64,000 nt of DNA, taken from the NCBI GenBank assembly GCA_902578315.1, contig CACHCL010000001.1:186001-250000 (forward strand), written 5' to 3'. Each line of letters starts with the position of its first letter. The first letter of the stretch is position 1. Shown here piece by piece: positions 61,592 to 64,000 of the stretch. A model generated the notes under the pieces. That model was not told the origin of the DNA. It saw nothing but the letters and a program-made list of their open reading frames with translations, and did no database searches. The translations under genes and the position numbers were made by a program. This stretch comes from an uncultured Pelagibacteraceae bacterium (GTDB lineage: Bacteria > Pseudomonadota > Alphaproteobacteria > Pelagibacterales > Pelagibacteraceae).

Positions 61592-62296
61592 ATGTTAAAA
61601 AAAAACATATTAAATAAAGTAAAACTTTTAGAGTACTACAAGCTTATTAACCATAATTTAATTTACAATAATAGTGCAATCAATAGATATAAAAAAGACA
61701 ATTTTGAAATTTCAGAGGATAAGGCCAGAAAATTAGAACTATTAAAAAAATCTATTTTAAATCAAAAGAGTTGTAATCTTAAAAAACAAGCTAAAAATAT
61801 TGTATTTAGCGATGGTAATGCAAAATCAAAAATTATGATCATAGGGGAGGCCCCAGGTGCTAATGAAGATGAAGAAGGGTTACCATTTGTTGGAAGAGCT
61901 GGGATGCTACTTGATAAAATGCTAGCAGCAATAAATTTGGATAGAAAAAAGGTTTACGTATCTAATATAATAAATTATCGCCCCCCTGATAATCGAAAGC
62001 CTACTGAGGAGGAAATTAAACAGTATTTACCATTTATCTCTAAACACATTGAGATTATTAATCCAAAAATACTTGTGCTTTTAGGAAGTACCGCAATGAA
62101 TGCCCTAATTGGAAAAGATGTTGTTATTTCAAAAATGAGAGGTAAATGGATAGAAAAAAAATTTGGAAATTGCAAAACGTCTGTAATTGTAACTTTTCAT
62201 CCAGCATTTTTAATGAGGCAGCCAGCTCAAAAAAAAATGGCTTGGATTGATTTAAAAATGATTAGAGATAAAATAACAAAATTCAAAATTTATTGA
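61592..62296 (+). CDS. Uracil-DNA glycosylase, family-4-like
   Basis: Removes uracil from DNA in base excision repair. It has 234 residues. The catalytic-loop motif GEAPGANEDEEGLPFVGRAG, NIINYRPPDNRKPTEEE, LVLLGSTAMNALIG and the leucine-loop TFHPAFLMRQPAQKKMAW are those of the family 4/5 group (UDG superfamily). Of the four [4Fe-4S] Cys positions in classical family 4, only Cys61 is kept; Lys64, Tyr129 and Tyr145 occupy the others, so a cluster is unlikely. Its start lies 4 bases from the divergent TPR start. Confidence 0.9.
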   Translation: MLKKNILNKVKLLEYYKLINHNLIYNNSAINRYKKDNFEISEDKARKLELLKKSILNQKSCNLKKQAKNIVFSDGNAKSKIMIIGEAPGANEDEEGLPFVGRAGMLLDKMLAAINLDRKKVYVSNIINYRPPDNRKPTEEEIKQYLPFISKHIEIINPKILVLLGSTAMNALIGKDVVISKMRGKWIEKKFGNCKTSVIVTFHPAFLMRQPAQKKMAWIDLKMIRDKITKFKIY

Positions 62297-62862
62297 AAAA
62301 ATTAATTACAGCTGGAGTCGACGAAGTTGGTAGAGGATGTCTTGCAGGTCCTGTGGTTTCTGCTGCGGTAATATTTAAAAAAGGTATAGATCTTAGTCTT
62401 TTAAAAGACTCTAAGAAAATAACATTTGATAAACGAGAAAAAATTTCAGACCATATTAAAAATTATTCTTATTATTCAATTGGCATAGCTTCTGTAAATG
62501 AAATTTTAAATCTTAATATTTTACAAGCATCATTACTTTCTATGAAAAGAGCAATTGATCGATTAAAAGTAAAGCCAGGTTTGACCTTAATAGATGGCAA
62601 CTTTGCACCTAAAGGTTTAAAAAATTATAAAACTATTGTTAATGGAGATGAAAAAATTAAAGTAATAAGTGCAGCCTCTATAATTGCAAAAGTTTATAGA
62701 GATAGATTTATGATTGGCCTTGCAAAGAAGTTTTCCAATTATGCTTGGGAAAGAAATTTTGGCTATGGTACTAAAGCTCATCTAGAAGGTTTAAAAAAAT
62801 TTGGAATAACTTCTCACCATAGAAAAGGATTTAAACCCGTACACAAGATATTGTCGAGATAA
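62293..62862 (+). CDS. rnhB: Ribonuclease HII
   Basis: Cuts RNA in RNA-DNA hybrids and removes misincorporated ribonucleotides. It has 189 residues from a TTG start at 62293 that overlaps the glycosylase stop by 4 bases. AGVDEVGRGCLAGPVVSAAV holds the first Asp-Glu pair, LLKDSKKIT, LIDGNFAP and VISAASIIAKVYRDR hold the rest of the catalytic set. In Caulobacter rnhB is also next to ccrM. Confidence 0.97.
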   Translation: MKKLITAGVDEVGRGCLAGPVVSAAVIFKKGIDLSLLKDSKKITFDKREKISDHIKNYSYYSIGIASVNEILNLNILQASLLSMKRAIDRLKVKPGLTLIDGNFAPKGLKNYKTIVNGDEKIKVISAASIIAKVYRDRFMIGLAKKFSNYAWERNFGYGTKAHLEGLKKFGITSHHRKGFKPVHKILSR

Positions 62863-62904
62863 AAATCTCAAACACAAGAGTATACATTTTTTATTGAAAA
62901 AGGT

Positions 62905-62933
62905 TTGACCATTGATTCAATTTAGAGTTGAAT
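62905..62933 (+). promoter_or_regulatory. Candidate promoter of ccrM
   Basis: TTGACC (62905-62910) and TTGAAT (62928-62933) are separated by 17 bases. The predicted start lies at about 62940, only a base or so from the ccrM ATG, so the mRNA may be nearly leaderless. The -10 element includes four bases of a GANTC methylation site. The -10 match is moderate, so the assignment is tentative. Confidence 0.45.
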
Positions 62934-62936
62934 CAA
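62912..62936. repeat. Inverted repeat with two GANTC sites upstream of ccrM
   Basis: TTGATTCAA (62912-62920) and TTGAATCAA (62928-62936) form a perfect 9-base inverted repeat with a 7-base spacer. Each arm contains one GANTC site (62914-62918 and 62930-62934), the target of the downstream methyltransferase. The second arm coincides with the candidate -10 of ccrM. Confidence 0.85.
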
Positions 62937-62940
62937 AAAA

Positions 62941-64000
62941 ATGATAAAATTTTCTGACAAAATAATTAACGGTGATTGTTTAAAGGAACTCAAAAAAATT
63001 CCAGACAAAACTTTTGATCTTGTTTTTGCTGATCCGCCTTACAACATGCAAATTGGTCAAAAATTAACACGTCCAGACTCTAGCAAAGTTAATGGTGTTA
63101 ATGATAAATGGGATCAATTTAATAGTTTCAAACACTACGATGATTTTAGTAAAGCTTGGTTAAAAGAATGTAAAAGAATTTTAAAAGATAACGGATCTAT
63201 TTGGGTAATTGGTTCATATCATAATATTTTTCGATTAGGATACCACTTACAAAATTTAGATTATTGGTTACTTAATGATGTTATATGGAGAAAAAATAAT
63301 CCAATGCCTAATTTTAGAGGGACTAGATTTACTAATGCTCACGAGACTCTTATTTGGGCATCAAAAAATAAAAAATCAAAATATACTTTTAATTATAAAT
63401 CCCTCAAATGTTTAAATGATGATTTGCAGATGAGATCCGACTGGATATTACCAATATGTAATGGAAAAGAGAGATTGAAAAAAAATGGAAAAAAAATACA
63501 TTCTACTCAAAAACCTGAAGCACTTCTTCATAGGATTATACTAGCAACTACTAATAAAGGTGATGTAGTATTTGATCCTTTTTTAGGGACAGGGACCACT
63601 GCTGTTGTATCTAAAAAATTAGGAAGAAATTTTTTTGGAATTGAAAAAGATAAAAAATATTTTAATTCAGCACAAGAGAGAATTAATAAAACAAAAAAAA
63701 TAGCTGACGACTGCCTAGATACTATCGAGAATAGTAAATCGAAACCTAGAATACCTTTTGGCTCACTAGTAGAATTAGGGATAATTAAACCTGGATCATC
63801 TTTATTTGACCCAAAAAAGAGGATTAATGCTAAAATAATGGCTGATGGAAGTATAAAATACAAGAATATAGAAGGATCAATACACAAAATTGCTGCGAAA
63901 ATAATGGGTGCAGAAAGTTATAATGGTTGGACTTATTGGCATTATAATTTGAATGGATCAACAGTATTAATAGACAATCTAAGACAAAAATTTATTTCAG
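62941..64000 (+). CDS. ccrM: Adenine DNA methyltransferase CcrM (GANTC-specific), 3' end outside window
   Basis: Solitary N6-adenine methyltransferase of the beta class (order DPPY then FxGxG). The open frame runs for 353 codons with no stop before the window ends; Caulobacter CcrM is 358 residues, so only a few residues are probably missing. FADPPYNMQI (31-34 catalytic DPPY), the SAM motif FDPFLGTGTT (211-220), and a C-terminal RAMA-like domain with GSLVELGIIKPGSSLFDP and NGWTYWHY are seen. It methylates GANTC and times cell-cycle genes in alphaproteobacteria. It follows rnhB by 78 bases and has its own candidate promoter. Confidence 0.95.
   Translation, partial: MIKFSDKIINGDCLKELKKIPDKTFDLVFADPPYNMQIGQKLTRPDSSKVNGVNDKWDQFNSFKHYDDFSKAWLKECKRILKDNGSIWVIGSYHNIFRLGYHLQNLDYWLLNDVIWRKNNPMPNFRGTRFTNAHETLIWASKNKKSKYTFNYKSLKCLNDDLQMRSDWILPICNGKERLKKNGKKIHSTQKPEALLHRIILATTNKGDVVFDPFLGTGTTAVVSKKLGRNFFGIEKDKKYFNSAQERINKTKKIADDCLDTIENSKSKPRIPFGSLVELGIIKPGSSLFDPKKRINAKIMADGSIKYKNIEGSIHKIAAKIMGAESYNGWTYWHYNLNGSTVLIDNLRQKFIS

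Follow-up and report, generated by a model that had tools for sequence, protein, structure and literature searches.

A conserved palindrome and paired GANTC sites in the putative core promoter of the SAR11 ccrM gene

In Caulobacter the GANTC sites of ccrM, the gene for the GANTC adenine methyltransferase, lie in the leader. Unlike these, the sites of the SAR11 ccrM gene which we describe here lie inside the putative core promoter. The two cases have in common the gene itself and the presence of GANTC in its promoter region, which for Caulobacter was already known (PMC2217572). To this extent the comparison made when the DNA was earlier read from its letters alone (the sequence-only reading), which noted that such sites help to limit ccrM expression in Caulobacter, is sound. 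It carries no further: the Caulobacter promoter is reported to be activated by CtrA and to be active from hemimethylated DNA, and its control has been modelled (PMC2217572), while ctrA has been reported absent from Pelagibacter (PMC2877005).

GcrA is described as recruiting polymerase to methylated promoters and as aiding open complex formation (PMC7403470), and Caulobacter transcription starts with a GANTC between the −35 and the −10 are reported to be activated at 40–60 min of the cycle (PMC4287350). The P1 promoter of Caulobacter ctrA resembles that of SAR11 ccrM in possessing a GAnTC which adjoins the −35 (at −28/−29, PMC4287350). GcrA binds to P1 according to methylation state, and on hemimethylated P1 the −35 and the adjacent GAnTC are covered (PMC3667746). 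A palindrome over the spacer and the −10 belongs to SAR11 ccrM; the available text of PMC3667746 and PMC4287350 makes no mention of one at ctrA P1. Unlike the SAR11 promoter, P1 has a single GAnTC and is also controlled by CtrA, and the SAR11 gene encodes the methyltransferase itself.

SAR11 bacteria rank with the most abundant cells of the ocean. Their GANTC sites are reported to be methylated, the methylated share being smaller close to the origin, and in cultured Pelagibacter NP1 99.86% of GANTC, all but 5 of 3482 sites, was fully methylated (PMC9516812), so that a protected site would be hard to accommodate in NP1. In one sea-ice Pelagibacter GANTC is reported as the only methylation motif (PMC12570018). 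Prediction of the GcrA regulon gave very few probable targets among the conserved orthologs of P. ubique (PMC7987155), and an earlier survey, in which GANTC was counted over alphaproteobacterial promoter windows of 500 bp, allowed no conclusion on methylation control (PMC2877005).

The window, that is, the whole 64,000-nucleotide stretch of Pelagibacteraceae DNA analysed here, ends within ccrM, which is separated from the upstream rnhB by 78 bp (Table 1). The ccrM product was identified as CcrM by NCBIfam NF050803 (E 8.1e-173; 574 bits, below the model cut-off of 830) and possesses Pfam N6_N4_Mtase and RAMA domains. In the gap, the 9-bp arms of TTGATTCAA-N7-TTGAATCAA are perfectly inverted about a spacer of 7 bp; AAAA and the ATG at 62941 follow. 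GATTC and GAATC, each central in its arm and 16 bp apart, start 27 and 11 bp before that ATG; the geometry given by the sequence-only reading, a 9-base inverted repeat with GANTC centred in arms 16 bases apart and within 30 bases of ccrM, was confirmed in the sequence. It had also placed the second GANTC in a candidate −10. The site does overlap TTGAAT, 17 bp after TTGACC, but this hexamer is non-consensus and was not reported by our sigma70 scan, which requires an A at position 2. TTGAAT would be a weak −10; its putative identity as such comes from comparison by eye with other SAR11 genera, where TCTAAT or TCTATT occupies the same register. The terminator scan detected none for rnhB. From the putative promoter the ccrM transcript would probably be near-leaderless.

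Table 1. Features of the rnhB–ccrM region, in window positions
Feature	Position	Strand	Remarks
rnhB (ribonuclease HII)	62293..62862	+	Upstream gene; NCBIfam RNase HII models match
Putative −35 TTGACC	62905..62910	+	TTGAC invariant in 96/96 loci
Left arm TTGATTCAA	62912..62920	+	ATTCAA (62915–62920) invariant in 96/96
GANTC site 1 (GATTC)	62914..62918	+	3 bp past the −35 hexamer; intact in 86/96
Spacer TTTAGAG	62921..62927	+	TTT and final G invariant in 96/96
Right arm TTGAATCAA	62928..62936	+	TTGAAT (62928–62933) invariant in 96/96
Putative −10 TTGAAT	62928..62933	+	17 bp after TTGACC; non-consensus
GANTC site 2 (GAATC)	62930..62934	+	Overlaps putative −10; intact in 85/96
ccrM, GANTC adenine methyltransferase	62941..64000, continues beyond window	+	357 aa in assembly

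Neither the closeness of the two GANTC sites nor the inverted repeat is evidence when taken by itself. Although the window has fewer GANTC than dinucleotide shuffles would lead one to expect (113 in 64 kb against 178), neighbouring pairs no more than 16 bp apart number 4 against 3.1 expected, and short inverted repeats (at least 9 bp, arms within 10 bp, some imperfect) number 166. Since both are individually common, it is conservation which makes the ccrM palindrome notable. GATTCAA-N7-TTGAATC occurs a single time in the 957-kb assembly. Near matches with up to three mismatches number 93 in the assembly against 102 for the reversed control, and a multi-target regulon in the window's own genome was rejected for lack of any excess.

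Conservation was assessed on 96 distinct ccrM loci, merged from 129 entries consisting of the best 80 of at least 565 named loci together with loci from whole genomes, a sample therefore weighted to close relatives. At least one genus-16 locus (L139) is among them, and L089 and L102 resemble that genus; the genus and family numbers are labels assigned by the tool. The pattern TTGAC-N5-ATTCAATTT-N3-GTTGAAT was retained in all 96. The assembly of the SAR11 strain HIMB058 (L076) is among those with this promoter. The columns were anchored with a pattern which itself fixes 17 of the invariant positions and which no locus failed; the invariant TTT and final G of the spacer lie outside that anchoring pattern. 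The two bases preceding that G were purines in 94 and 96 of the loci. The left GANTC was intact in 86 loci, the right in 85, both in 77 and neither in 2, and the right site ended 5 or 6 nt from the start codon in 94. The symmetric element which the sequence-only reading proposed upstream of ccrM is borne out by these loci as conserved. The alignment of intergenic regions suggested beforehand as its check gave a divided answer: the repeat core was kept in 96/96, but one GANTC or more was lost in 19/96.

On the ccrM gene tree (FastTree, midpoint-rooted), Fitch counting gave no change at TTGAC, ATTCAATTT or GTTGAAT. At the G and the C without which the GANTC sites are incomplete there were 10 and 9 changes, as against 25 and 25 in the columns directly outside. 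More widely, the three columns preceding site 1 showed 13–25 changes, the three following site 2 15–29, the three variable spacer columns 14–19, and third codon positions a mean of 13.6. At the left site the 10 changes equal the 10 loci lacking it, so each loss seems recent and separate; the right site shows 9 changes for 11 loci without it. Because the core is invariant and the GANTC-completing bases are not, the palindrome and the −35 are, on these counts, fixed, and the GANTC sites favoured under weaker selection, not obligatory. The loci gave no support to a requirement that one of the two sites be kept: both had gone in 2 loci, where independent losses would give 1.15. The two loci in question (L065 and L133) have lost both core GANTC sites and kept the palindrome core, and constitute natural cases for telling methylation from protein binding.

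Further upstream the relatives often carry additional GANTC, at some 78 and 60 bp from the ATG (62/96 and 54/96 loci, both in 40). Both of these outer sites, frequent in the relatives (L031–L110), have been lost from the window (62863–62890). Just before the −35 a T run (62888–62891) and an A run (62897–62900), UP-element-like in appearance, are conserved at 97–100% and 89–99% per base.

The palindrome was then sought as ATTCAAY-N5-RTTGAAT in 297 genomes of the order and was present in 59. All 30 genomes of the window's genus, our own included, had it at ccrM; 28 had no other copy and 2 had a second elsewhere, so that it is near-single copy in the genus. It was found in six of seven genus-16 genomes (in the seventh, G305, ccrM itself was not matched), twice in the sole genus-17 genome, and sporadically elsewhere (18 genus-13, one genus-12 and three family-2 genomes). 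In genus 16 the palindrome and site 1 are kept and GAATT replaces site 2 (6/6 genomes). Genus 13, which judging from its dominance in the sample is probably Pelagibacter proper, has two GANTC in 31 of 33 loci, one by the −35 and the other with its TC opening the −10 register. In 32 of the 33, TTCAA lies exactly 7 bp ahead of TTGAC, forming a related palindrome which covers the −35. In genera 12, 15 and 17 (2, 4 and 1 loci) ATTC(A/T)A-N7-TTGAA stands right before the ATG and begins inside a separate −10, the core being without GANTC in both genus-12 loci and in 2 of the 4 of genus 15. Genus 14 (3 loci) lacks the palindrome and has one GANTC. Read by eye, the second SAR11 family has two core GANTC in 13 of 17 loci and a single one in each of the 4 genus-3 loci (the automated count scored L200 as having one, a later TTGAC having been picked); its palindrome is at most degenerate, with ATTCTA-N7-TTGAC in many loci.

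Measured from the first T of TTGAC, the palindrome centre falls at −4 in genus 13, +19 in genera 1 and 16, and +35/36 in genera 12, 15 and 17. As all three registers are within the expected polymerase footprint, a repressor site would fit better than an activator site. The palindrome is more constrained than the GANTC sites, given the invariance of its core, the absence of site 2 from genus 16, and that of core GANTC from genus 12 and from 2 of the 4 genus-15 loci.

About 28 places away from ccrM matched the search pattern and 16 of these were opened. In 12, the same geometry (ATTCAATTAATAGTTGAAT and relatives) lies between divergent genes for a gamma-butyrobetaine dioxygenase-like protein and a betaine-type ABC transporter, and in a thirteenth (L230) by the transporter gene only (L227, L228, L230–L234, L237–L241 and L217; genera 13 and 17). 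Gene families were assigned by family searches at two loci and matched by eye at the others. Near one locus are also a carnitine dehydrogenase-like gene and one for a beta-keto acid cleavage enzyme. Inspection by eye of two 18-kb stretches (ORFs of at least 110 aa; 7 proteins compared with NCBIfam) revealed no conspicuous regulator gene by the carnitine locus. These palindromes may represent, in genera 13 and 17, the regulon of the putative dimeric protein of the ccrM palindrome, or some other regulator, unrelated to it, may read a half-site of like sequence.

Beyond SAR11, we examined 68 ccrM upstreams of other Alphaproteobacteria, 260 bp each, taken from the top of a list of 124 genomes outside the clade that had a match of any kind (one, L327, is nearly empty, with just 7 bp before the match). 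TTGAC-N1..5-GANTC-N3..12-GANTC was present in 27 of the 68 and on the reverse strand in none, with a shuffle mean of 0.005. TTGAC-N1..5-GANTC, alone or within a pair, was present in 41 (2 in reverse; 0.3 in shuffles). Its absence from the other 27 indicates a design which is frequent, not universal. In 23 of the 27 double-site upstreams the second GANTC stands at offset 14 from TTGAC, and its C is therefore the first base of a −10 at 17 bp. GANTC in the predicted ccrM core promoter recurs through SAR11 and a large share of the other Alphaproteobacteria sampled. Paired sites at fixed positions in 27 of 68 promoters suggest that feedback of self-methylation on ccrM may be old. One genome has two identical copies of a TTGAC-GANTC-GANTC stretch on the same strand (G152:C1:661830 and 672644), about 10.8 kb apart and not near ccrM. 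In the open-licence papers searched, we met no account of such GANTC pairs in the core promoter of ccrM.

A GcrA homolog is present in the window's own genome (PF07750 at G000:C11:6680-7108, E 7.9e-39), in 78 of the 101 genomes searched, our own included, and in 64 of the 75 of the class search. It was not enriched with the double-site promoter (22/27 against 34/40 others at E 0.001, G144 scoring under the family cut-off; G496, one of the 68 class genomes, was outside this search). The match was missing from 5 of 27 double-site genomes and 6 of 40 others, and no association over the class was seen. ChpT (PF10090), which stands in here for the CtrA phosphorelay, was found in none of 6 SAR11 genomes, and in 54 of 75 genomes in all. 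Among these are 24 of the 27 double-site genomes, one of them scoring under the family cut-off, and the double-site promoter is therefore no general substitute for CtrA.

Our preferred explanation, to which we would give an even chance, is that the ccrM core promoter is of the sigma70 type, methylation-responsive via GANTC, and overlaid by an operator for a putative dimeric protein, which suggests that the CcrM mark and a DNA-binding protein would jointly control ccrM. TTGACC, 17 bp and TTGAAT would constitute the promoter, with transcription beginning at or beside the ATG. With CcrM sites by the −35 and on the −10, recruitment of polymerase or GcrA would depend on whether methylation is full, half or absent, and CcrM would thereby feed back on ccrM following each replication. 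The dimeric protein would read ATTCAA-N7-TTGAAT over the spacer and the −10 and most likely repress; adenine methylation in both arms would also be expected to alter its binding. We infer the promoter and operator, and with them the start site, the protein, its repressing role and the methylation response with its sign, from the promoter parts, the literature on GcrA and CcrM and the methylation of GANTC in SAR11. The operator is favoured because the left arm and the TTT are accounted for by neither the −35 nor the −10. Inverted repetition, fixed spacing, a position over the promoter and conservation over lineages, all marks of an operator, were found, in a form which genus 14 does not have and the second SAR11 family does not have either. 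The sites also have the placement of the GcrA/CcrM type, by the −35 and on the −10 register, the pair being kept in 77 of 96 loci. Counting against the proposal are the changes at the GANTC-completing bases, the lack of site 2 in genus 16 and of core GANTC in genus 12, and the missing palindrome of genus 14. So do the two loci without either site, the lack of association between GcrA and the double-site promoter, the few GcrA targets predicted in P. ubique, the nearly complete GANTC methylation of NP1 and the weakness of the putative −10. The dimeric regulator which the sequence-only reading allowed for is likely; the methylation-sensitive switch of that reading is plausible as a second layer but not proven as the core, the palindrome being under the stronger constraint.

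One might instead dispense with methylation and see only an operator, in which a putative dimeric repressor sits on ATTCAA-N7-TTGAAT and GANTC is partly incidental, arising from a preference for TTGAATC half-sites or as a relic of the older ccrM promoter. This is possible, though we rather doubt it. The invariance of the core beside 10 and 9 changes at the GANTC-completing bases would follow from it, as would three registers which each lie inside the expected polymerase footprint and the similar palindrome in the divergent carnitine/betaine promoter region of genera 13 and 17. Yet those completing bases vary less than the flanking columns and leave the sites intact in 86 and 85 of 96 loci, and core-promoter GANTC at ccrM recurs far beyond SAR11. 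That the promoter is an ordinary constitutive one, its palindrome a coincidence of constraints on −35, spacer and −10, we think improbable. TTGAC and TTGAAT are indeed accounted for by the −35, the spacing and the −10 register, and short inverted repeats are common in the window, but such a promoter leaves unexplained why the spacer's ATTCAATTT shows 0 changes over the 96 loci, and likewise the near-single copy and the similar geometry at other registers.

Very unlikely, in our estimate, is an RNA hairpin in the 5' leader that masks the ccrM start codon. The plus strand can fold with 11 bp in the stem and 3 nt in the loop (38-nt piece, z −4.1), the spacer bases opposite the T run are nearly all purines and so still able to pair in RNA, and the outer pairs 7/31 and 8/30 show a weak association (matched by 1.3% and 0.7% of shuffles). 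A 56-nt piece is, however, unremarkable (z −1.2), and the stem, placed after the invariant TTGAC and ahead of the ATG, would not be transcribed in full from such a promoter, most of it falling before the implied start. At pair 9/29 there is no covariation (with 78 Watson-Crick and 8 G-U the shuffles are not exceeded), no compensating change having been seen there among the loci. Moreover, the palindrome overlaps the −35 in genus 13 and starts inside the −10 in genera 12, 15 and 17.

Returning to a promoter which responds to methylation and carries an operator, two described systems resemble its proposed working. The synthetic CcrM memory circuit of Maier 2017 (PMC5458116) likewise places a GANTC-containing operator that binds a multimeric repressor at ccrM; that circuit is man-made, with a zinc-finger repressor in E. 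coli, and both repressor and bistability would be hypothetical in SAR11. At the GANTC promoters shielded by MucR, as reported (PMC5172544), a DNA-binding protein competes with CcrM, as our proposal would have it. MucR itself was rejected as the shielding protein, ROS_MUCR having been found in none of the 14 SAR11 genomes searched. A natural epigenetic memory switch, in which a dimeric repressor on the unmethylated palindrome hides the promoter and shields both GANTC sites from CcrM, and in which methylation of the two arms, should CcrM once get past, excludes the repressor, is a long shot. If true, ccrM would keep its own ON/OFF state over divisions in a clade apparently without CtrA. For the timing of GANTC methylation in SAR11 the ccrM palindrome offers a precise element, in a clade reported to lack the CtrA that activates ccrM in Caulobacter. 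The SAR11 ccrM promoter would extend the known GANTC-containing promoters of the GcrA type to one which controls the methyltransferase itself and whose core is fixed in the close relatives examined.
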